A stretch of DNA of 50,981 nt from Gemmatimonadota bacterium. Its GTDB lineage: Bacteria > Gemmatimonadota > Gemmatimonadetes > Gemmatimonadales > Gemmatimonadaceae. Both the position numbers and the translations under genes were made by a program. Position 1 is the first letter of the stretch. The number at the start of each line of letters is the position of its first letter. This document shows positions 27,983-46,430 of the stretch, in pieces. The stretch covers positions 1 through 50,981 of the forward strand of contig VHBP01000010.1 of NCBI GenBank assembly GCA_016871915.1. The letters are read 5' to 3'. The notes beneath the pieces are model-generated. The model saw only the letters and a list, made by a program, of their open reading frames with translations. It searched no databases and was not told the DNA's origin.

Positions 27983-28792
27983 TCAGTGGGCGTGCTGGCC
28001 GGCGCCGATGCGCGCGACGAACTGGGCCTTGGTCTCGTCGCTCGCGATCCGGCCGTCGCGCAGCACCACGACGCGCCGCGCATGTGAGGCGATGTCGGAC
28101 TCGTGCGTCACCATGATCACCGTCTGGCCGGAGTCAGCGAGATGCTCGAACACTTTCATGATCTCCTCGGAGGTATTCGAGTCGAGGTTCCCCGTCGGCT
28201 CGTCGGCGAGGAGGATCGAGGGGTCATTCACCAACGCGCGCGCGATCGCGACGCGCTGCCGCTGCCCACCCGAGAGCTCGTTCGGCCGGTGATGTACGCG
28301 CTCCCCGAGCTGCACCTTCTCCAGCGCCTCCATGGCCCGCTGCTTCCGCTCCGCCGCCGGCACGCCAGCGTAAACCAGCGGGAGTTCGACATTGGCGAGC
28401 GCCGAGGCGCGGGGGAGGAGGTTGAAGGTCTGGAAGACGAAGCCGATCTCCTTGTTCCGGACCCGCGCCAACGCGTCATCCCCCATCTCGGAGACGAGCT
28501 GGCCGTTGAGCCAGTACTCCCCCTCGTTCGGGGTGTCGAGGCACCCGACGATGTTCATGAGGGTCGATTTGCCGGAGCCCGAGGGGCCCATGATCGCCAC
28601 GTACTCGTTGCGCTTGACCGCGAGGTCCACGCCTCGGAGGGCCCGCACGATCTCGCCTCCCATGTCGTACTCGCGCGTGAGCCCGCGGGTGACGATCACC
28701 CATTCGGCGCTCGGCGCCTGGCCGACCGCGCGCATCACCACCTGCCGCTCGGGGGTTGTCCCCGCCGGGGCCTCCATCAGGTCCGGACTCAT
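27983..28792 (-). CDS. ABC transporter ATP-binding protein, MacB/LolD type
   Basis: A 269-residue ATPase that should power the neighbouring MacB-type permeases. It has Walker [13 protein letters not shown], the Q loop ([22 protein letters not shown]), the signature [15 protein letters not shown], Walker [15 protein letters not shown], and the switch His in MVTHESDIA, all as in the MacB/LolD/FtsE group. An N-terminal ~30-residue Pro-rich extension precedes the core ([15 protein letters not shown]). It is the only ATPase in a cluster with four permeases. The ATG overlaps the adaptor-gene stop (ATGA) and has an AAGAAGAG purine run upstream. Confidence 0.93.
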
Positions 28793-30078
28793 CTCTTCTT
28801 CTCCTTCGCCACGGTGGGCGTCATCGGCTCCTGTTCCTTCACGAGCTGCCCGTCCTTGAGCTCGCGGATCGCCTGATAGGTCCCCGCGACGATCCGCTCC
28901 CTCTGATCGAGCCCGCGGATCACCTCGAAGTGCTTCTCGCCGGCGATCCCCACCTGTACGGGGCGGAAGGTCACGGTGTTGTCGGTGTTCACGACGAAGA
29001 CCCCCTCCACATCGCGCTTCCCGACCTGCACGGCGGGTCCGGTCTGGCGCGGCCCCGCGGCGGAGTCCTGCTGCGCCTGCGATTCGTCCTCACGGACGGT
29101 GAGGGCGATGATCGGGATCGCGAGCACCTGTCGGCGGGTGTCGGTGATGATCTTCGCCGTCGACGAGAAGTCGGGACGCGTGGCGGGTGGGGGATTCAGG
29201 ATCCGCACCGTGACCTCGTAGTCGATCGCCTGATCGGTCGAGGCCGCCGCCGCCCCGGCCCCACGCACCGAGCTGTTGGAGATCTCGACCACCTCCCCGC
29301 GGAAGGTGGTGTCCGGGAAGGCGTCGATCTGGACGATGGCGGTGTCGCCGACACCGATCCGGCTCACATCGGTCTCGTCGACCTTCACCTTGGTCTCGAG
29401 GATGCTCATGTCGGAGATCGTGAGGAGGGTCGCCGCGTCCTTGTTCAGCGTCCCCATGATCGCCGTCTCACCGACCTCGACGTTGAGCCGAGTCACGCGT
29501 CCCGCCATCGGCGCATAGATCGTCGTGCGCGAGAGCTGGAAGCGTGCGTCCTTGAGCGAGGCCTCCGCTTGCTTCACGTTCTCGCTCGCCGCTTCCACGA
29601 GCGCCTCGTTCACCTCGAGCTGCGTCTCGAGCCGCTCGATCTCCTGCGTGGAGACGAGCTCGGCGTTGGTCTTCCGGATCTGTTGCTGCCGCTCGAGGTC
29701 GCGCTTGGCCTGGAGGAGGTTGGCCCGCGCCTGCGCCGCGCTGGCCCGCGCGTTCGCCAGTGCCGCCTCCGCGCGCTGCACCTGTGCCTCGAACTGCGTC
29801 GGGTCAATCTGGAGGAGGAACTGGCCCTCCTTCACCGTATCACCGTCCTTCACCGCGAGCTTCGTGATGCGACCGGTGATGTCGGAGGAGATGTCGACCT
29901 TGGTACGAGGGCGCACCTGACCGCTCGCGGTCACGGAGGCGACGAGATCCTGGAGTCCCGCGGCCTCGATGCGCACCTCGGTGGCCTTGGCGCGGTTCTT
30001 GGCGATGGACTGGGCGATCGAGCCGCCCACGAGGAGGACGCCGACGGCGCCGAGGATGATCTTGGTTCGCTTGGTCAC
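28789..30078 (-). CDS. MacA/HlyD-type periplasmic adaptor protein
   Basis: A 429-residue membrane-fusion protein that bridges the inner-membrane permease and TolC. It has an N-terminal anchor helix ([20 protein letters not shown]), a split lipoyl domain ([41 protein letters not shown] ... [20 protein letters not shown]-like), a long alpha-helical coiled-coil hairpin (residues ~85-175, rich in Ala, Gln, Glu), and beta-barrel and membrane-proximal domains. It fits the MacA family found with MacB-type permeases. The start is GTG 30078, seven bases after the TolC stop. A charged Lys/Glu tail ends the protein. Confidence 0.9.
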
Positions 30079-30085
30079 AACGATC

Positions 30086-31612
30086 TCAGTTGGGGCGAAG
30101 GGTGCGTCCGACGGCGGCTTCGAGTGCCGCGAACGCCCGGTGGAATTCGTAGACCGCGTCGATGCGGTCGGTCTCGGCGCGCTCGAACTCGGCGCGCGAG
30201 GTGGTCAGGTCGACGAACGTGGTGCTCCCGACCTTGTAGCGCTGCTCAGCGAGGGTGAGCGCCTCACGCGCCGTCCCCGCGTTGCGGGACTGCAGTTGCA
30301 CCGTCTGATACGCCGCTTCCAGCGTCACGAAGGCCGAGGTGACCTCGGCGGTGAGGGCGAGCTCTTGGCGGCGGACGCCGTAGCGCGCGTCGGTCCGCGA
30401 GGCATTCGCCTCCTGCAGGCGCTGTTCGCGGCCGAAGCCGTCGAAGAGGGGGAGGGAGATCCCCATCGAGAGGGTGTAGGGGTTCCGCGTGAAGTCGAAG
30501 GGATAGCTCGAGTTCGCGGAACGGATCGCCGCCTCCTGCGTGGGGCCGAAGACGATCGCGGCGCACTGCGGGGCGATCGTCCCCAGTCCGGTGCGCGTGC
30601 GGATCGAGTCGGTGGTGAGGCAGGAGGCGCGCTGTGAGGCGGCCTGCGCCGCCCCCTGCGCGAGCGCGGGATCGAGGTCCAGCTGTTTCTGCGCGACGCC
30701 ACCGACGTTGGCGGAGAGGGAGAGGACTGGGGTGTACTCGCCACGGGCCGCGCTCACGCCAGCGACGGCGACCCGCTCTCGTGCCTCGAGGGCGCGGAGG
30801 GTGGGATTGGCGGATCGTGCGGTGGTCAGCAGGTCCTCCAGGACGAAACGCGGGGCCTCGACGGGGAGATCGGCGACCAGTGCGACGCCGGCCGGCATCG
30901 CGACACCGATCTGCTGGAAGAGCTGGAGCCGCGCGACGGCGGCCGCATTGCGTGCGCGGAGCGCCGCCACCTGCTGCGTCCCGAGCCCCACCTCAGCGCG
31001 CTTCACATCCAACGAGGTGAGCTGGCCCACGCCCGCGCGGGCTTTCGCGAGGTCGAGCAGGAGCTGTTGTTGCACCACGAGCGAGTCCTGCAGGGCGGCG
31101 CGGGCCTGCGCCTGCAGGGCGCCGATGAACTGCGCCGTCACCCCCGAGCGCAGGTTGAACAGCGCGGCGTCGACCTCCGCCTCCGCGGCGTCGAGCGCGG
31201 CATTCGCGCGACGGACGGTGTTGATGGAGTTGACGCTCAGCCGAGCGTTCGCGCCCAGTCCCCAGCTGGAGGAGACGATGTCCGAGGTGGCACCGAAGGC
31301 GAGGCCGCCGAAGAACTGGGGGCGTCCCTCTCGATAGCTCGAACCGATCGAGGCGTCGGCGCTCGGCAAGAGCGCCCCATAGGCGGAGCGGAGGGCGGCG
31401 CTGGCGCGCGTGCGCCCGGTGATCGACTGCAGGTACGCGGGGTTGTTACGCTTGGCGAGGTCGAGCGCCTCGGTGAGCGAAAGGGTCGTCCGCGCGCCCT
31501 GCGCCGCGAGTGGGGCCGCGAGGCAGAGGGCGACGAACGCAAAGTGGAACGATCGGGTCAACGCAGGTACCTGGTCATGAAGAGGAGAGAGGGAGAGGGC
31601 CCGGAGAGTCAT
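30086..31612 (-). CDS. TolC-family outer-membrane efflux protein
   Basis: A TolC-like channel protein of up to 508 residues. A signal peptide (FHFAFVALCLAAPLAAQG) precedes the first structural repeat (LSLTEALDLAKRNNPAYLQS); two long helical repeats follow, rich in Ala, Gln and Arg, and the second begins LEDLLTTARSANPTLRALEARERVAVAGVSAARGEYTPVLSL. The C-terminal SRAEFERAETDRIDAVYEFHRAFAALEAAVGRTL is typical of the family. The start is uncertain: ATG 31612 gives a long N-region before the signal peptide, whereas TTG 31561 (MTRSFHFAF) gives a normal signal sequence and may be the true start. It forms a tripartite exporter with the adaptor and permeases downstream. Confidence 0.88.
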   Translation of the reverse strand: MTLRALSLSPLHDQVPALTRSFHFAFVALCLAAPLAAQGARTTLSLTEALDLAKRNNPAYLQSITGRTRASAALRSAYGALLPSADASIGSSYREGRPQFFGGLAFGATSDIVSSSWGLGANARLSVNSINTVRRANAALDAAEAEVDAALFNLRSGVTAQFIGALQAQARAALQDSLVVQQQLLLDLAKARAGVGQLTSLDVKRAEVGLGTQQVAALRARNAAAVARLQLFQQIGVAMPAGVALVADLPVEAPRFVLEDLLTTARSANPTLRALEARERVAVAGVSAARGEYTPVLSLSANVGGVAQKQLDLDPALAQGAAQAASQRASCLTTDSIRTRTGLGTIAPQCAAIVFGPTQEAAIRSANSSYPFDFTRNPYTLSMGISLPLFDGFGREQRLQEANASRTDARYGVRRQELALTAEVTSAFVTLEAAYQTVQLQSRNAGTAREALTLAEQRYKVGSTTFVDLTTSRAEFERAETDRIDAVYEFHRAFAALEAAVGRTLRPN

Positions 31613-31635
31613 ACGCACGGGTCCCGCCCAGAGTT

Positions 31636-32325
31636 TCACTGCGGGATGTCGTCGCGCACCGCGTCGAGGTCGAGGGCGGGGAAGCGCACGCGGAGCAGGC
31701 GACCCCGCGAATCGGTCCAGACCTCCTGGACCACGAGGTCACCAGCGCGGATCACCCACCGCTGTGCTGCCACATCGACGGTGCCGAATCGCAGGAGCTC
31801 GCTCCCTGATGGCGACAGGACCACCTGCTGCCGCTCGACGGCCCGCGGTGCCAACCGACCCATCGGTCCCTCAGTGCGAAAGCGCAGCAGGAACCAGACC
31901 TGATGTGCGATGTCCTCGTCACCGGCCAGGGTGCCCGGTGGGAGGCGGAATTCACGGGCTGATTCCCCGAGGAGGCTCAGGGTACGCCCGGACCAGATCG
32001 TCCCGCGGGACTCCCCCGTGGTGGTCTCGGCGGTGCGACCGGCCTGGAAGGTCTCGTGGGAATACCGAAGGGGATATCCGGCGGAGTCGACGGTCAGGAC
32101 CACGGTGCGCCGCACCTCCCCCGTGGTGACGTTCGCCTGCGCGATCATCGTCGTCCCCGAGGAGCTCTGCACGCGTCGGATGCTGAAATCCTCGCGCCCG
32201 ATGCGCACCTCCTGTCGGAGGAGGGAGAAGGTCCCTTCCTCCACCACCGTGACCTGGCCCTCCGCCTGGCGCGGGAGCAGGAGGGTGTGTAGTGCGATGA
32301 TGAGGACCGAGGCACGCCGAACCAT
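31636..32325 (-). CDS. Secreted protein of unknown function heading the efflux operon
   Basis: A 229-residue protein with an N-terminal signal peptide (VRRASVLIIALHTLLLPRQAEGQ). The rest is beta-strand rich, without cysteines or a catalytic motif I recognise; alternating strands such as VRRTVVLTVDSAGYPLRYSHETF and QRWVIRAGDLVVQEVWTDSRGRLLRVRFPALDL suggest an outer-membrane-associated or periplasmic beta fold, loosely like DUF3108-type proteins. It is the first gene of the tolC-macA-ATPase-permease cluster, ending 24 bases before the TolC start, so it may assist export or bind the exported compound. ATG 32325 lies exactly at +1 of a TAGATTTG box. Confidence 0.6.
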   Translation of the reverse strand: MVRRASVLIIALHTLLLPRQAEGQVTVVEEGTFSLLRQEVRIGREDFSIRRVQSSSGTTMIAQANVTTGEVRRTVVLTVDSAGYPLRYSHETFQAGRTAETTTGESRGTIWSGRTLSLLGESAREFRLPPGTLAGDEDIAHQVWFLLRFRTEGPMGRLAPRAVERQQVVLSPSGSELLRFGTVDVAAQRWVIRAGDLVVQEVWTDSRGRLLRVRFPALDLDAVRDDIPQ

Positions 32326-35400: not shown

Positions 35401-36087
35401 ATGGCGCGACAGGTGGCGCATGAGATCAAGAATCCCCTCACGCCGATCCGACTGGGGGTACAGCATCTGCTTCGCGCTCGGCAAGATGCGCGTGTGGACT
35501 TCGATGCGGTGCTGGAGACCAACGCCACCCGGATCCTCCAAGAGATCGATCGGCTGGATGAGATCGCGCGTACGTTCAGCCGGTATGGGCTCGCGCCGCT
35601 CGAGGATGCGGCGCCGGTGGCGGTGGATCTCGCGGCGGTAGCGCGGGATCTCCTGGCGCTCGAGCGACTCGGCGCCGGCGAGGTGACCTGGCAGAGCGAC
35701 ATCCCCGAGGGAACCATCCTAGTGGCGGCGGAGGAACGCGCGCTCCGAGATGTGCTGATGAACCTGCTCGAGAACGCGCGGTCGGCGCAGGCGCGCACGG
35801 TGCGACTCGGGATCACCCGAACCGCGACGGGCGGGGCCTCCGTGACCGTGACCGATGATGGACATGGCATAGAGGCGACGATGCTCCCACGGATCTTCGA
35901 GCCCCATTTCTCCACGCGCACCAGTGGGAGCGGACTCGGTCTCGCGGTCAGTCGGCGGCTCGTGGAGCGGTGGGGCGGGAGCATCACCGCGGCGAGTGAG
36001 CCCGGACACGGGACGACGATGACGGTGCGGCTCACCGCGGCCCCCGGTGAAGTCGCGATATCTTTCGCGCCCGATGGCCACCGCTGA
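32404..36087 (+). CDS. Giant multi-pass sensor histidine kinase, NtrY-like C-terminus
   Basis: A 1227-residue membrane kinase. About 14 hydrophobic segments are visible: three at residues 4-72, eight between ~263 and 500, and single ones near 716-738, 760-780 and 910-932. Extracytoplasmic loops of ~190 (73-262), ~215 (501-715) and ~130 (781-909) residues could sense signals. A HAMP domain (~935-985) leads to the H box EMARQVAHEIKNPLTPIRLG with H1006, then the N box (NLLENARSAQA), DDGHGIE, IFEPHFSTRTSGSGLGLAVSRRLVERWGGS. The H-box form is that of NtrY kinases, but there is no PAS domain, and the N-terminal region is far larger than in NtrY. The gene overlaps the downstream kinase gene by 14 bases. 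The cognate regulator is not adjacent. Confidence 0.88.
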   Translation: MTPSLLAIWIILLSGAFWVRTPSVLGVAALTGAVLVLSWELRRGTVTRRRRAIAALMGWALVALTAQPLFVNRAASERRGGGAVAPSAPGEALRTAVAAEGERLVAAARRATQLSRDRTTAFREIGGLLPSEVDRAVIVAQAGRPFAWSGRLVVPLDSLRGSVGAIVTPFYVVLYAAHLDGDRLGVATTLLHGAAPALGLSRPLDRMLTSVDAEDFAYGEVAAASGVPGAVVLELKGRPILAARGEAASREARELTTTERVRWQVLLVLALLALVAVAKVWHRGRGVGPRVATLGILVGVVLLTPFNTFSNRSVWFDPVVYFTSFGGPFTGTAAALAISSALALLGLLTVRRKRIRPRSRGIAIGLVLFIAAIGPFVLRELARGIQVPATGIPRALWVAWQVPIFLAAVTVLLAGVAAGRPIVRDWIGVPRWVAPAIAIVAAILTPLVLSGPGRLPATFPVLWIAAIIALALTKRRRTLVLPVAIVAACGSVTTIWAATVRDRVALAAADIRSLTASDPMGVTLLDRYAQRLDPRGAARTRTELLEAYTATDLAAAARPAEVASWDPSGGLLAELRVRRAPGITAGVERFADEARATGAAFIREVDGEPGRHLVLAVPHADRTVTTVVLAPATSLVRPDAFGALLGFSTPPTIDPPYRLTLGQTPRLPVPAETAQRWERDGTELHGDWYLPADEGAVRRIHATVELRSLDALVMRGTLLVFLDLAILGTLWILVLVADGLLPRWWRQRHPELLRSFRVRLSGALFAAFVIPSALFGWWSFQRLQVEDAQRRNLVVRETLRGIAAAASAEELSAAATRFETPLFLYADGILASTSDPLLDALAPLGRLLPAEVALTLAQGEEPSAGALTTVGDKVVRLGYRAALASDGTALVLAAPARLDDRLLDRQRDDLVIFLLFALSLGGIIALAASGVGARQLSRPIHVLRQRALTLARGEGAPATMERPPSEFVPVFRAFDRMTVELAEHRRELVRAERVLAWGEMARQVAHEIKNPLTPIRLGVQHLLRARQDARVDFDAVLETNATRILQEIDRLDEIARTFSRYGLAPLEDAAPVAVDLAAVARDLLALERLGAGEVTWQSDIPEGTILVAAEERALRDVLMNLLENARSAQARTVRLGITRTATGGASVTVTDDGHGIEATMLPRIFEPHFSTRTSGSGLGLAVSRRLVERWGGSITAASEPGHGTTMTVRLTAAPGEVAISFAPDGHR
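36059..36064 (+). promoter_or_regulatory. Candidate internal -10 box for the pseudokinase-kinase gene
   Basis: TATCTT inside the 3' end of the histidine kinase gene. A +1 at 36071 would leave a 3-base leader before ATG 36074. Confidence 0.45.
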
Positions 36088-37828
36088 ACCCTCTCTCACG
36101 AACCGTCCCTCCACCGGCGTGCCTGCGCACGTCGCGTCGTGGAGTCTGCCCCCCGATTGGCGGTGGGGGGTAGGCGGCGTCCACACCCCGTATCGGCATG
36201 CGCAGGAGATCATCGATGCGCTCGGGCGTTCGCTCGCGTTGGTGACCGCGCCCGATCCCGCGCACCACGCCTGGCTCTTCCGCGAGGCGCGCCACCTCGC
36301 GCAGCGTAACCATCCGAGCATCCCGACCACCTACCACTTCTGGCAGCAGCACCCTGGGAGCCCCCGTGGCCCGGGCTATCTGCGCCGATGGGTGACGGGA
36401 CAGACGATGGGGGAGCGGTTGCGCCGTTCCGGACCGGAGACCATCCCGGTCGCGTTGCGCATCATCCGGTTGGTGGGCTCCGCACTCGCCTATCTGCACG
36501 ATTCGGGTGCGACGCATGGGGCGCTCGGACCGGAGACTACCTATCTCACCCCGACGGGGCGCGTCTGGCTCCTCGGATGGCAGTGGGCGATCCCCCGCGA
36601 TGAGATCCCGATGGGCGTCACCCCCGACCCGCGTCGCACGCCTTGGGCGCCCGAGTGGGGGAGCGAGTGGAAGCCCACCCATGGGTCAGATCAGTGGCAA
36701 CTCGGCGCGGTCGCCTTCGCGATGCTCACCGGTGAGGTGCCGGTGGCGGGGCACATCCCGCCGCTCCGCATCGCGCGCCCTGATGTGCCCGCCTCCGTCG
36801 CCGAGCTAGTCGATCAGATGCTCGCGTTCGATCCCGGTCAGCGCTTCTCGAGCATCGCGGGGATGCTCCGTCGCATCGAGCGCATCTCTGGCACCTCGTC
36901 CCTCGCCGTGCCGAGCGCTGAGAAGGGGGAGGAGGTATCGCAGGAGGATCGGCTCCGCTGGGCCACTGGGGATGATTACGAGGTGCTCGCCCCGCTCGGG
37001 TCGGGCACGTACGGGTCGGTGTGGCGTGTGCGCGACCTCTCGCTCGAGCGCGAGGTCGCGCTCAAGATGTTGCACCCCACCGTCGCGCGGAACGCGGTCG
37101 CGGTGGCGCGCTTCCGGCGTGAGGCGCAGCTGGCGGCGCAGCTGCAGCATCCTGCCATCGTCCCGATCTTCGCCTGGGACGCGAAGGGCGAGGTCAACTG
37201 GTACATCATGGAGCTCGAGGAGGAGGGATCGGTTGCCGATCTCATCCGACGGGATGGCCCCCAGTCGCTGACGTCGATCGGCCCGCAGATCGATTCCGTG
37301 CTCGACGGCCTCGCGGTCGCGCATGCCGCGGGGATCGTCCATCGCGATCTCAAGCCCGAGAACATCCTGATCGATCGGTATCGCCGCTGGCGGATCGCCG
37401 ACTTCGGTATCGCCAACGCGATGGGGGGCGAACTCGCCGGGGCCTCGGGGACACCGGCCTTCGCCGCACCCGAGCAACTCCTCGGCGAGGAGCAAGGGGT
37501 GCAGACCGATCTGTTCGCGCTCGCGGGGATCGTGATCTATGCGCTCACCGGGGAACCACCGTTCGCGGGGACCGATGGTAAGACGATCCTCGCCGCGCAG
37601 CTCGCCGGTCGGATGGAGCTCGATCAGTTCGACTCGCATCTCCGTGCCTGGTTGCGACGGGCCCTCGCTGCCGATCCCGCCGATCGCTTCCGCGATGCGC
37701 AGACGATGCGGCATGCGTGGCGCGCGCTGGTGCGTGAGGCGGCGCGCGACGAGCGGCGGCAGGCGCGTCCGCTCGGACGGGTCTGGACGCACCTCCGCCG
37801 CCTCTTCGTCCGGCCCGCATCGACCTGA
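36074..37828 (+). CDS. Pseudokinase-Ser/Thr kinase fusion protein
   Basis: A 584-residue soluble protein with two protein-kinase folds. Domain 2 (~302-555) is intact: GSGTYGSV loop, K331 in VALKML, E350, HRDLKPEN (D425, N430), D443-F444-G445 and APE at 465-467. Domain 1 (~40-270) keeps the overall order: a Glu at 71, SALAYLHDSGATHGA, GVTPDPRRTPWAPEW, SDQWQLGAVAFAMLTGEVP, and DPGQRF. It lacks catalytic residues: the lysine is lost in LALVTA, HRD is HGA with Ala150, the Asn is T155, and DFG is replaced by LGW. Domain 1 should regulate or scaffold domain 2. ATG 36074 is preferred over the upstream GTG 36047. It ends with TGATG into the TonB-receptor gene. Confidence 0.9.
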   Translation: MATAEPSLTNRPSTGVPAHVASWSLPPDWRWGVGGVHTPYRHAQEIIDALGRSLALVTAPDPAHHAWLFREARHLAQRNHPSIPTTYHFWQQHPGSPRGPGYLRRWVTGQTMGERLRRSGPETIPVALRIIRLVGSALAYLHDSGATHGALGPETTYLTPTGRVWLLGWQWAIPRDEIPMGVTPDPRRTPWAPEWGSEWKPTHGSDQWQLGAVAFAMLTGEVPVAGHIPPLRIARPDVPASVAELVDQMLAFDPGQRFSSIAGMLRRIERISGTSSLAVPSAEKGEEVSQEDRLRWATGDDYEVLAPLGSGTYGSVWRVRDLSLEREVALKMLHPTVARNAVAVARFRREAQLAAQLQHPAIVPIFAWDAKGEVNWYIMELEEEGSVADLIRRDGPQSLTSIGPQIDSVLDGLAVAHAAGIVHRDLKPENILIDRYRRWRIADFGIANAMGGELAGASGTPAFAAPEQLLGEEQGVQTDLFALAGIVIYALTGEPPFAGTDGKTILAAQLAGRMELDQFDSHLRAWLRRALAADPADRFRDAQTMRHAWRALVREAARDERRQARPLGRVWTHLRRLFVRPAST

Positions 37829-40023
37829 TGCAGAGGGCCGTCCGCCACGGGGTCGGTGCGGTCCTCGCACTGATCACGCTCGTCGCGCCGGCTGAGGGAC
37901 AGCTCGACACGACGCGCCGCACCACCGCACCGCGCGTCACGGTGCCACGCGACGCAGTGCCACGCGATTCGGTGCGCGCGCAGGTGATCGCCCCGGTGCA
38001 GGTCACGGTGACGGGACGGAGTCAGGCGCTCCCACGGGTCCCATGGGCGGTCGGCACGCAGGAGCTTCGCGACCTGCGCCGCGGCCAGGCGACGATCGGC
38101 GTCGATGAAGCGCTCGCCAACATCCCGGGCGTCGTGATCGCGAATCGCTACAATGCCGCCGTCGATCAGCGTCTCTCGATCCGCGGGGCGGGGAGTCGCG
38201 CGAACTTCGGCGTGCGCGGGGTGAAGGTCCTCCTCGATGGGATCCCGCAGTCGCTCCCCGATGGGCAGAGTCAACTCACGAACATCGATCTCGCTGCGAT
38301 CGGTCGCGTGGAGGTCCTGCGCGGCTCGGCGTCGGCCCTTTATGGGAATGGGTCGGGGGGGGTGCTCAGCTTCACCACCGATCTCTCCGCGCCCGATCCC
38401 CTCGGGGTGACGGCCCGATCACTCCAGGGCTCGTTCGGTCTGCGCAAATCCCAGCTGCGCCTGAGTGGGCGCGGCGGTGCGACCGTCGGGGCGCTCTCCC
38501 TCTCGCGGACCTCATCTGATGGGTTCCGGCAGCACAGCGCCTTCGTGACGGACCAGCTCTCGCTCGCCCTCGATCGATCGTTCGGCGCCGATCGCGTGCT
38601 CGAGCTCCGCAGTGGACTCGCCCAGACACCGACGGCCTTCAATCCCGGCGCACTGACCCTCACGGAGTACGCACTGAATCCCGATACGGCGGCCCTCGCC
38701 AACGTGCGCCGTGGCGCGCGACGGGCGATCGCCCAGCGCCATCTCTCGGCGCGAATGCGCGGTGGGGACGCGCAGCGGTCGTGGAGCGTGAGTATCTACG
38801 GGCAGGGGCGTACCGTGGACAATCCGCTTGCGACGCCGCCCCCCGCGCCCGCTGGCCCGACGAACGGCATCTACTCGACGATCGATCGCGCCGTCACCGG
38901 CGCGCGCGCCGAACTCACCCGGTCGCTCGGCGCGCGCGCGCGGCTGGGCCAGCTCACCAGTGGCGTGGACGTGCAGCGCTCGCGCGACTGGCGGCGCAAC
39001 TGGCGCTCGACGGCCGGGGCGCGAGACCTCCCCACCGACACGCTCCTCCTCGAGCAGCGCGAGATCGTCACAAGTGTCGGGCCCTTCGTGCAGTGGCTCA
39101 TCGACCCGCGCGACTGGATGACGGTGAGTGCTGGGGGGCGTCTGGATCATCTCACCTTTGCGGTGGACGATCGCTTCTCCGGTGACGGCGATGATGACTC
39201 AGGCCGCCGCGCGATGCAGGCGTGGAGTGGACATCTCGGGGTCGTGCTCCGACCGCACCCCGCGGTCTCACCCTATCTCAACTGGTCGACCGCCTTCGAG
39301 ACGCCGACCACGACGGAACTCAATGCGCGGCCCGATGGACTCGGTGGATTCAATCCCGAGCTCGGTCCGCAACAGACGTCTACCGTCGAGGTGGGGGTGC
39401 GAGGGGCCGTCGGGGGATCACGCCTACGCTATGAGGTCGCGCTCTTCGATGCGCGCGCTCGTGACGCGATCGTCCAGTACCTCGAGACGAACGGCCGTGC
39501 CTTCTTCCGGAACGCGGGACGCACACGGAGTCGCGGGGCCGAGGGAGGGGTGACGCTGGTGGTGCACCCGGCCGTGGAGCTCCGCACCGCCTGGACGCGT
39601 GCCGAGTACACCTTCGCGACCTATCGCGTCCCCTCAGCCACGCGGCCCGCGCCGGCGCTCGACACGCTCGACGGGAATCGGCTCGCTGGTGTGCCGCGCA
39701 CCTCGGTGCGTCTCGGCGCGCGCCTCACGCACCGTGGGTTCGCCCTCGATGCCGATCACACGCTGCAGTCGGCGCTCTGGGGGAACGATGCGAACACCGT
39801 GCGTGTGCCTGGCTGGGGACGGGGTCTCCTCCAGCTTCGAGCGTCTTGGCGCGGACGGATTGGCGCGCAGGAGATCGAACCCTTCGCGGCGGTGCAGAAC
39901 CTCCTCGAGCAGCGGCTCATCGGGGCGATCACCCTGAATGGGGCGTTCGGACGTGTTCTTGAGCCGGCACCGAGGCGCAATCTCTACCTCGGGCTCGAGA
40001 TCGGAAGGGCATTGCGGCGCTGA
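37828..40023 (+). CDS. TonB-dependent outer-membrane receptor
   Basis: A 731-residue outer-membrane receptor. A signal peptide (VGAVLALITLVAPAEG) and a ~30-residue Thr/Pro/Arg-rich linker precede the plug domain (residues ~65-200): GVDEALANIPGVVIANRYN, RLSIRGAGSRANFGVRGVKVLLDGIPQSLPDGQSQL, IDLAAIGRVEVLRGSASALYGNGSGGVLSFTT. The rest is a 22-strand-type barrel with alternating strands and the conserved WSTAFETPTTTELN region. Such proteins import metal chelates, cobalamin or large organic ligands; the plug is of the iron-complex receptor type, but the substrate is unknown. The last residue is Arg rather than the usual aromatic. The ATG overlaps the kinase-gene stop by one base, so production is coupled to the signalling genes. 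Confidence 0.9.
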   Translation: MQRAVRHGVGAVLALITLVAPAEGQLDTTRRTTAPRVTVPRDAVPRDSVRAQVIAPVQVTVTGRSQALPRVPWAVGTQELRDLRRGQATIGVDEALANIPGVVIANRYNAAVDQRLSIRGAGSRANFGVRGVKVLLDGIPQSLPDGQSQLTNIDLAAIGRVEVLRGSASALYGNGSGGVLSFTTDLSAPDPLGVTARSLQGSFGLRKSQLRLSGRGGATVGALSLSRTSSDGFRQHSAFVTDQLSLALDRSFGADRVLELRSGLAQTPTAFNPGALTLTEYALNPDTAALANVRRGARRAIAQRHLSARMRGGDAQRSWSVSIYGQGRTVDNPLATPPPAPAGPTNGIYSTIDRAVTGARAELTRSLGARARLGQLTSGVDVQRSRDWRRNWRSTAGARDLPTDTLLLEQREIVTSVGPFVQWLIDPRDWMTVSAGGRLDHLTFAVDDRFSGDGDDDSGRRAMQAWSGHLGVVLRPHPAVSPYLNWSTAFETPTTTELNARPDGLGGFNPELGPQQTSTVEVGVRGAVGGSRLRYEVALFDARARDAIVQYLETNGRAFFRNAGRTRSRGAEGGVTLVVHPAVELRTAWTRAEYTFATYRVPSATRPAPALDTLDGNRLAGVPRTSVRLGARLTHRGFALDADHTLQSALWGNDANTVRVPGWGRGLLQLRASWRGRIGAQEIEPFAAVQNLLEQRLIGAITLNGAFGRVLEPAPRRNLYLGLEIGRALRR

Positions 40024-40038: not shown

Positions 40039-40569
40039 ATGTCCACTCCACTGGCTTTCAAAGTTCGGGAATCCGCGGTCGCGGGAAAGGGTGCCTTCGC
40101 CATCCGCCCCATCACGAAGGGCGAGCGCATCACCGAGTACACGGGGGAGCGCATCTCGCACCCGGAGGCCGATACGCGCTATGACGACGAGTCGATGCAG
40201 GAGCACCACACCTTCCTCTTCTCCGTCACCAGCCGGACGGTGATAGATGCCTCGCACGGCGGGAACGAGGCGCGGTTCATCAACCACTCCTGCGATCCCA
40301 ACTGCGAGACGGAGATCGAGAAGGGACGCGTCTATATCTTCGCGCTCCGGGACATCCCGGCTGGGGAGGAGCTCCATTACGACTACGCCTATGAGCGGAG
40401 CGGGGACGAGACCGCTGAGGATGAGCGCCGCTACAAGTGTCTCTGCGGGTCGCCGACGTGCCGCGGTTCGATCATGGAGCCCAAGGCGACCTATCTGAAG
40501 CGCAAGCGCGCCGAGGCGGCGAAGGGGGCCGCGAAGCAACGCAGCAGCGCGCCGGCGCGGAAGAAGTGA
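40039..40569 (+). CDS. SET-domain protein lysine methyltransferase with post-SET zinc cysteines
   Basis: A 176-residue SET protein that would transfer methyl from S-adenosylmethionine to protein lysines. Motifs: AGKGAF (residues 16-20), EYTGERIS, ARFINHSCDPNCE (N82, H83, S84, C85), GEELHYDYAY (Y114, D115, Y116), and a post-SET CLCGSPTC (C134, C136, C141) which with C85 could bind zinc as in eukaryotic SUV39/SET2-type enzymes. The tail from 153 (KRKRAEAAKGAAKQ) is strongly basic and may bind nucleic acid or the substrate. Bacterial SET genes of this compact kind are known, but the substrates are mostly undefined. ATG 40039 lies two bases after the predicted transcript start. Confidence 0.88.
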   Translation: MSTPLAFKVRESAVAGKGAFAIRPITKGERITEYTGERISHPEADTRYDDESMQEHHTFLFSVTSRTVIDASHGGNEARFINHSCDPNCETEIEKGRVYIFALRDIPAGEELHYDYAYERSGDETAEDERRYKCLCGSPTCRGSIMEPKATYLKRKRAEAAKGAAKQRSSAPARKK

Positions 40570-44863: not shown

Positions 44864-45066
44864 TGTTCGGCTGCTTGGGCAGGATCCTCTCCGCGATCTT
44901 CTTCATCATCCTCGGCGCGGTGTTGCACGCGCAGTGGCCGGCGATCAAGCGCGAGCTTCGCGAGCGTGTGCCGGACGTACTGCCCGCCCCGGTAGCGGAG
45001 AAGGCGCGGACGATCGTCTCGATCGAGGTGACCCCCGATCAGGTGATCGCGCGGAGGATCGGGTGA
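44863..45066 (+). CDS. Small single-pass membrane protein of unknown function
   Basis: A 67-residue protein between larE (TGATG overlap) and the NtrC-type regulator (stop overlapping its GTG). The N-terminus MFGCLGRI is followed by one hydrophobic helix (ILSAIFFIILGAVLHA, residues ~8-24) and a basic then acidic cytoplasmic or periplasmic tail (PAIKRELRERVPDVLPAPVAEKARTIVSIEVTPDQ). I know no family for it. Coding is supported by perfect overlap at both ends and by a plausible start and length. Its position suggests production with the regulator; it may be an accessory membrane subunit. Confidence 0.6.
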   Translation: MFGCLGRILSAIFFIILGAVLHAQWPAIKRELRERVPDVLPAPVAEKARTIVSIEVTPDQVIARRIG

Positions 45067-46430
45067 GCGACCGCATCTTGGTGGTCGATGACGAACCCGG
45101 GGTCCGCGCCGCCCTCACGCAGTTGTTGGAATACGAGGGCTACGAGGTGCGGGCCGTCGCGAGCGGCACGGAGGCGCTCGCCACCTACGCGAGTTGGACG
45201 CCGCGCCTCGTGCTCCTCGACGTGAAGATGGCGGGGATCGATGGGCTCGAGACCCTCTCGCGGTTGCGGGCCGCCGACCCCGAGGCGGTGGTGGTGATGA
45301 TCTCGGGCCACGCCACGCTCCGCGACGCCGTCGACGCGACGCAGCGTGGTGCGTATGACATCCTCGAGAAGCCGCTCGACACCGATCGGATCCTCGTCAC
45401 GATCCGGAATGCGATCGGCCACCTCACCCTGCGAGAGGAGAACGCGCGCCTCCGCGCCCACGTGGAATGGCATGGGGCGATCGTCGGCGCGTCGCCACCG
45501 ATCCGCGCCCTGGTCGCGCAGATCGATCGGGTCGCCGCCACCGGCGCGCGGGTGCTGATCACCGGGGAGAACGGCACGGGGAAGGAGTTGGTCGCGCGCG
45601 CCATCCATGCCAAGTCGCCTCGCGCCTCAGCGCCGTTCATCGAGGTCAACTGCGCGGCGATCCCGGGCGAGCTGATCGAGAGCGAACTCTTCGGCCATAT
45701 GCGCGGCTCCTTCACGGGGGCGGTGCAGGATCGCCCGGGCAAGTTCGAACTCGCGGATGGGGGGACCCTCTTCCTCGACGAGATCGGCGACATGTCGCTC
45801 GCGGCGCAGGCTAAGGTGCTGCGCGTCCTCGAGGACGGCGCGGTCACCCGCATCGGCGGGCGCACGAGTCGCACCGTCGACGTACGCGTGCTCGCGGCGA
45901 CGAACAAGCGCCTCGAGGAGGAGATCGCCGCGGGGCGCTTCCGCGAGGATCTCTACTATCGCCTCAACGTCGTCCCGCTCACGGTGCCGGCGCTCCGCGA
46001 ACGCCGTGAGGACATCCCGATGCTCATCACGCACTTCGTCGAGCGGATGGCGGCGGAGGCGGGGATGACGCCGCGCCCCTTCGATGCGATGGCGATGGAG
46101 CGGCTGGTCACGCTCGACTGGCCGGGCAACGTGCGCGAGCTCCGGAACACCATCGAGCGGCTCCTCATCCTCTCCGTGGGGCCACGCGTCACGGTCGCCG
46201 ATATCGATCGCCTCGTCGCGGGCCGCGCCGCCGAGGTGGGTGGGGGGCTCGGCCCCATCGAGGGGGCCCGTACCTGGGAGGAGTTCAAGCGCACCGCGGA
46301 ACGCACCTTCCTGCTCCATCATCTCCGGCGCCACGATTGGAACATCGCCGAGACGGCGCGTGCCCTCGAGATGCCGCGCTCCAATCTGTATGCCAAGCTC
46401 GAACGCCACGGGATCTCCCGGGACCACTAA
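45063..46430 (+). CDS. Sigma-54-dependent response regulator, NtrC/NtrX type
   Basis: A 455-residue three-domain transcription activator. The receiver has D9-D10, phosphoacceptor D53 (LVLLDVKM), MISGHATLRDAV and K103 (DILEKPLD), a form close to NtrX. The AAA+ domain shows Walker A GENGTGKE (168-175), the sigma-54 contact loop as GSFTGA (215-220) where most members read GAFTGA, Walker B GGTLFLDEIGD, and the arginine-finger region FREDLYYRLNV. A Fis-type helix-turn-helix ends the protein (NIAETARALEMPRSNLYAKLERHGI). It is a plausible partner for the NtrY-like kinase at 32404-36087. The TAA stop forms part of the next -10 box. GTG 45063 overlaps the small membrane gene (GTGA). Confidence 0.92.
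   Translation: MSDRILVVDDEPGVRAALTQLLEYEGYEVRAVASGTEALATYASWTPRLVLLDVKMAGIDGLETLSRLRAADPEAVVVMISGHATLRDAVDATQRGAYDILEKPLDTDRILVTIRNAIGHLTLREENARLRAHVEWHGAIVGASPPIRALVAQIDRVAATGARVLITGENGTGKELVARAIHAKSPRASAPFIEVNCAAIPGELIESELFGHMRGSFTGAVQDRPGKFELADGGTLFLDEIGDMSLAAQAKVLRVLEDGAVTRIGGRTSRTVDVRVLAATNKRLEEEIAAGRFREDLYYRLNVVPLTVPALRERREDIPMLITHFVERMAAEAGMTPRPFDAMAMERLVTLDWPGNVRELRNTIERLLILSVGPRVTVADIDRLVAGRAAEVGGGLGPIEGARTWEEFKRTAERTFLLHHLRRHDWNIAETARALEMPRSNLYAKLERHGISRDH

Follow-up and report, generated by a model that had tools for sequence, protein, structure and literature searches.

The window analysed here is a stretch of 50,981 nucleotides from a bacterium of the Gemmatimonadaceae (phylum Gemmatimonadota). 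It carries a gene whose product contains two protein kinase domains in a row, the first apparently inactive and the second apparently complete. This raises the questions whether the first domain is a kinase fold that has lost catalysis, whether the two-domain protein represents a stable family, and whether the dead domain could control the live one. The original prediction for this locus had read the protein as a bacterial pseudokinase joined to an active Ser/Thr kinase, in an arrangement recalling that of JAK.

Domain organization of the tandem protein

The features of the tandem gene and of the histidine kinase gene upstream of it are listed in Table 1. Comparison of the protein with the Pfam Pkinase model gave a match for domain 2 (residues 302-549) with an E-value of 1.8e-43, and a match for residues 67-259 with an E-value of 2.7e-7 and 30.7 bits, the curated cut-off being 31.7 bits. 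Two types of this protein could be distinguished among homologues, based on the first domain: type A, to which the protein of the window belongs, and type B, found in sister families. As had been predicted, domain 2 represents a complete kinase, whose catalytic set (VAIK, HRDxKxxN, DFG, APE) was present in 49/49 proteins of type A and 29/29 of type B. The C-terminal tails of the tandem proteins are basic and contain Trp or Phe, which suggests peripheral membrane attachment.

Table 1. Features of the tandem pseudokinase-kinase gene and of the adjacent histidine kinase gene, with positions in the window
Feature	Position	Strand	Remarks
NtrY/AtoS-like sensor histidine kinase, 1233 aa	32386..36087	+	Overlaps start of tandem gene by 14 nt
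Tandem pseudokinase-kinase gene	36074..37828	+	ATG start; 584 aa plus stop
Domain 1, pseudokinase, about residues 18-280	36125..36913	+	Pkinase match, model, 50 homologues
V57, position of the VAIK lysine	36242..36244	+	V/I/L in 50/50 type A; R in 28/30 type B
E71, helix C glutamate	36284..36286	+	Kept in 80/80 (types A and B)
RGPGYLRRW, strand 5 and hinge	36365..36391	+	Gatekeeper R104; hinge W106, W in 80/80
H148-G149-A150 at HRD site	36515..36523	+	Alignment
G168-W169-Q170 at DFG site	36575..36583	+	W in 50/50
Linker motif ExRLRxAxGDDYE, residues 291-303	36944..36982	+	Common to tandem types A and B
Domain 2, complete Ser/Thr kinase, residues 302-549	36977..37720	+	VALK, HRDLKPEN, DFG, APE
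Basic C-terminal tail, Arg-rich with Trp/Phe	37721..37825	+	No evident transmembrane segment

Loss of catalytic residues in the first domain

For the analysis of domain 1, 50 homologues from Gemmatimonadaceae (type A) were aligned jointly with 44 other Ser/Thr kinase domains of Gemmatimonadota. All 44 of the latter keep the catalytic Lys, both Asp residues and the Asn. Among the type A domains, the VAIK lysine is absent from every sequence and Val, Ile or Leu stands in its place. The predicted loss of this lysine could be confirmed, with its site moved to V57 (LALV against VALK/VALR) rather than T58. DFG is likewise absent from all 50 and is replaced by G/E-W-x; here too the loss itself stood, and the site aligned to residues 168-170 and not to the L-G-W originally named. 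At the HRD site the motif HG(A) is found and the catalytic Asp is missing from 49/50 homologues, as proposed for A150. The sole exception (homologue L053) has HGD at this site and still lacks both the Lys and DFG. The Asn of the catalytic loop, which had been considered lost at T155, is mostly replaced by Thr or Ser.

Residues with a structural role are kept in domain 1, namely the helix-C Glu (correctly assigned to Glu71 before), the APE Glu and the helix-F Asp. An additional feature, absent from the original prediction, is the gatekeeper Arg R104 in the hinge motif, with Arg at this position in 50/50 type A domains. Many Trp, His and Arg residues are invariant in type A; R104, R105, W106 and W169 are all invariant or nearly so, and R104, W106, H148, G149 and W169 map to the former ATP cleft according to the alignment. 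The first domain of type B is degraded differently, carrying VALR, xRR and DLR. It retains the DFG Asp in 30/30 sequences and has Arg at the lysine site in 28/30.

Judged by these alignments, domain 1 is a kinase fold that lacks the residues for ATP binding and phosphate transfer. Type A very probably does not bind nucleotide, and type B might still do so, given its DFG Asp and the Arg in place of the lysine.

Structure prediction of the first domain

Searching with the whole chain in Foldseek gave only single kinases among the matches listed. Since these matches were mostly driven by domain 2, domain 1 was modelled separately, from 82 homologues. The AlphaFold2 model of domain 1 alone reached a pLDDT of 92 and a pTM of 0.89. 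Its best structural match (Foldseek, VIA-align) was PknB, with a Z-score of 26.7 and an rmsd of 2.7 over 239 residues. Sequence search against the PDB also placed PknA and PknB of M. tuberculosis closest to domain 1 (E-values of 1e-14 to 1e-11), and PknB was the closest solved fold for both domains of the tandem. The kinase fold proposed for residues ~40-270 was thus supported by structure prediction, and a non-kinase fold is excluded within the limits of such prediction.

Distribution, descent and selection

Searches with domain 1 revealed one clear orthologue per genome across most Gemmatimonadaceae, including Gemmatimonas and Roseisolibacter. A kinase census of a genome from a sister family identified an ORF of 605 aa with one weak and one strong kinase match, which has the same layout as the tandem and a similar linker (EKRLRRALGDDYE against EDRLRWATGDDYE). 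Such type B tandems were found in most genomes of two sister families, ruling out the limitation of the tandem to Gemmatimonadaceae to which the domain-1 profile (E-value 1e-40) had pointed.

The two-domain layout, which it had been proposed to look for in Gemmatimonadota, was then followed with a profile that runs from the end of domain 1 through the linker into the first part of domain 2. Of 395 genomes of the phylum, 205 were matched by this profile, every one of them from three families of one order, with E-values of 1e-50 to 1e-62 in most members. Outside the order no match was obtained at 1e-17 among the 395 genomes searched. The tandem is mostly single-copy, as there was nearly always one match per genome. 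A search of plasmids retrieved generic kinases only. In the genome of the window, which is small (2.07 Mb), only five kinase-domain (STK) loci were counted, the tandem among them, and four relatives had 18 to 34 kinase-domain matches.

In the phylogenetic tree, the first domains of types A and B grouped in a single clade and their second domains in a separate one, each with a UFBoot value of 100. Based on these clades and on the order-wide distribution, the tandem dates back to the ancestor of the order. First and second domains grouped together with a support of 77; the tandem possibly arose by internal duplication, for which this tree support is weak. Since then, the first domain has been degraded along two fixed routes, represented by types A and B.

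The dN/dS values of domain 1 between orthologues ranged from 0.03 to 0.18 and were close to those of domain 2. These values indicate purifying selection on domain 1, and both domains are evidently under such selection as far as can be read from sequence comparison.

Second copies were seen at a few loci. In family f3, three loci (L251, L256 and L261) have a further tandem-like kinase gene, situated 2 to 5.5 kb downstream of the type B tandem. Loci L051 and L052 (genomes G026 and G053) carry a second, more divergent tandem paralogue with no histidine kinase nearby, and the dN/dS of its domain 1 is higher (0.29).

Genomic context

Near neighbours of the tandem gene encode the histidine kinase, a MacAB-TolC-like exporter, a TonB receptor and a SET protein. 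Among 99 loci of Gemmatimonadaceae, the tandem is situated directly behind an NtrY/AtoS-like histidine kinase of approximately 1200 aa in 75, the two genes mostly overlapping or lying within about 50 nt of each other. At 17 further loci of the 99, the histidine kinase is found downstream, on the opposite strand and within 9.5 kb. In two genera of this family (g7 and g34) the histidine kinase occurs without the tandem, and in another (g30) the tandem occurs without this histidine kinase. The sister families have other genes in the position behind the NtrY-like histidine kinase, and no universal neighbour gene was found for the type B tandems. A fixed rule placing the tandem beside the histidine kinase is ruled out by the sister families and by some of the genera. 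The link to the histidine kinase is therefore not obligatory, and since the histidine kinase is followed elsewhere by other genes, the placement of the tandem behind it is a trait of Gemmatimonadaceae. Where it occurs, this placement makes the locus a concrete candidate for cross-talk of Ser/Thr kinases with two-component systems.

The operon of the MacAB-TolC-like exporter (window 27983-32325, divergent, with a 229-aa protein) is kept beside the histidine kinase in three families. The association of the histidine kinase with this divergent export operon is older than the place of the tandem there, judging by its occurrence in the sister families and in genera of Gemmatimonadaceae that have no tandem.

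Comparison with known systems

The members of the JAK family are tyrosine kinases with the layout FERM-SH2-JH2-JH1, and a layout of this kind is regarded as eukaryotic. Like JAK and TYK2, the tandem has a pseudokinase (JH2 in those proteins) N-terminal to an active kinase (JH1) in one chain. However, it is built from two PknB-like domains, has no FERM or SH2 domain, and carries the Ser/Thr-type loop HRDLKPEN. The comparison with JAK that was made originally holds for the order of the domains and does not reach beyond this layout.

With respect to layout, the nearest precedent among bacteria is PglW from the Pgl/BREX phage defence system. In this protein, described in 2015, an atypical kinase domain without ATP site (195-490) is followed by a Hanks-type Ser/Thr kinase (530-816), and autokinase activity was shown (PMC4365076). 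The PglW profile (NF033442) is co-linear with the tandem over residues 70-563, with a score of about 112 bits against a curated cut-off of 990 bits. PglW differs in its length of about 1400 aa (584 aa for the tandem), its NERD domain and its location in a defence locus, and the tandem locus is unlike a Pgl/BREX locus with PglX and PglZ. A search for PglW in 121 genomes of the phylum at an E-value of 1e-100 gave no match, the control genomes being equally silent.

Two proteins of M. tuberculosis share further features with the tandem. MviN, one of the ActPs3 pseudokinases, has an STK-type fold in which all three motifs are lost and bulky aromatic residues lie in the cleft; the ActPs3 group has an activation-loop deletion and often a C-terminal transmembrane region (PMC12599244). 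PknB is regulated through contact of two kinase domains (PMC6333020); there the contact is made within a homodimer whose domains are both active and which has a receptor part, whereas in the tandem an inactive partner is fused in cis. Comparison with the equivalog of the PASTA kinase Stk1 (NF033483) gave 229.6 bits against the 450 required, and there was no PASTA match.

Bacterial pseudokinase families have been catalogued by O'Boyle et al. 2025 and are experimentally largely unexplored (PMC12599244). This review makes no mention of tandem, two kinase domains, dual, or Gemmatimonad, and no description of the tandem family was found in the literature searched on Gemmatimonas kinases and on bacterial tandem pseudokinases. 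The original remark that the arrangement was not known as a described bacterial class can be largely maintained for the family, but not for the layout, which PglW already presents (PMC4365076). The tandem belongs among the bacterial pseudokinase families, its distinguishing marks being the fusion with a live kinase and the fixation in one order. Its members have about 600 aa and no receptor parts, and the dead and the live kinase have been fused since the ancestor of the order. The two differently degraded versions amount to a natural experiment on the features that a pseudokinase has to retain in order to act on a kinase.

Possible role of the pseudokinase domain

Taken together, the results would fit an order-wide tandem family in which domain 1 regulates domain 2 in cis, together with the NtrY-like histidine kinase in Gemmatimonadaceae; a probability of roughly 0.6 is given to this reading. 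Control of domain 2 by domain 1 is plausible on the basis of the purifying selection, the conserved linker and the order-wide co-inheritance of both domains. Domain 1 would then be a non-catalytic regulatory domain which holds or switches domain 2 through interdomain contact, most likely via the N-lobes, by analogy to the back-to-back contact of the PknB type. In type A, the Arg gatekeeper and the Trp at the position of the DFG Phe stand at the former ATP cleft. In Gemmatimonadaceae, the switch could cooperate with the upstream NtrY-like histidine kinase, for example by phosphorylation of the histidine kinase or of its response regulator. A more specific version must be regarded as tentative. 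In it, the tandem would be an order-defining switch, the dead domain in its two classes (an Arg gatekeeper and a Trp for the DFG Phe in type A, VALR and DLR in type B) would gate the kinase allosterically, and in Gemmatimonadaceae, where it came to lie behind the NtrY-like histidine kinase, it would work with that kinase and so join Ser/Thr and His-Asp signalling at one locus.

The back-to-back dimer of PknB has been proposed to act allosterically, via contact of the kinase domains (PMC6333020). In the tandem proteins, residue 301 is Asp or Glu in 78/78 second domains, and Arg is found there in 24 of 45 other STKs of the phylum. This residue presumably lies at the edge of the N-lobe, at the site of the PknB Arg in the back-to-back dimer interface (Arg10-Asp76 contact). 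As a lead from residue 301, the tandem may have traded a homodimer contact for an intrachain one. The full-length model of the tandem had a pTM of 0.60, so the relative placement of the two domains is not confidently predicted.

Alternatively, domain 1 could be a docking scaffold that brings a partner or substrate to domain 2 and leaves the activity of domain 2 unchanged, candidate partners being the histidine kinase, its response regulator or a membrane protein. Precedents would be the pseudokinase MviN, which recruits FhaA, and EssB/YukC, which assembles a secretion machine (PMC12599244). The many invariant Trp, His and Arg residues of type A and the conserved gene neighbour would suit such a role. 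However, conservation of this neighbour is limited to a single family out of the three in which the tandem occurs, and the location of R104, W106, H148, G149 and W169 argues that the state of the cleft itself is conserved. Scaffolding is considered rather unlikely, though the most probable of the alternatives.

Domain 1 could also be the sensor of the protein, with a ligand bound in the altered cleft next to the Arg gatekeeper and the Trp. The near-invariance of R104, R105, W106 and W169 in type A would agree with this, as would type B, where nucleotide binding could persist through the retained DFG Asp and the Arg at the lysine site. The aromatic side chains may just as well occupy the pocket themselves, which is the case in MviN (PMC12599244), and a sensor is considered improbable. 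A new enzymatic activity of domain 1, like the AMPylation by SelO or the glutamylation by SidJ, could likewise be supposed from its conserved cleft residues, but type A lacks the ATP lysine and the metal-motif Asp which both of these enzymes retain (PMC12599244), making this explanation highly improbable. Least credible is a decaying, functionless duplicate, which the grouping of domains 1 and 2 would fit as an old internal duplication but which is contradicted by the dN/dS and conservation of domain 1, the order-wide retention and the two distinct fixed sets of replacements.

Genes downstream of the tandem

An NtrX/NtrC-like sigma-54 response regulator is encoded at window 44934-46430, about 9 kb downstream of the histidine kinase, and is a possible partner of this NtrY-like kinase. 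The gene for the SET-domain protein (window 40039-40569, 176 aa) keeps its place downstream of the TonB receptor gene in the gene order of near relatives.

The tandem gene and the gene for the TonB-dependent (PqqU-like) receptor overlap as TGATG (window 37825-37830). At four loci from two genera (L073, L081, L083 and L088), the tandem ORF lacks a stop codon and continues in frame into the downstream TonB-dependent receptor. The resulting fused ORFs have 1292-1308 aa, the two parts being connected by a basic segment and a hydrophobic core that resembles a signal peptide, and in L073 there is no in-frame ATG, GTG or TTG between the tandem and receptor parts. A kinase joined to an outer-membrane receptor via an internal signal peptide would, if true, be most unusual.
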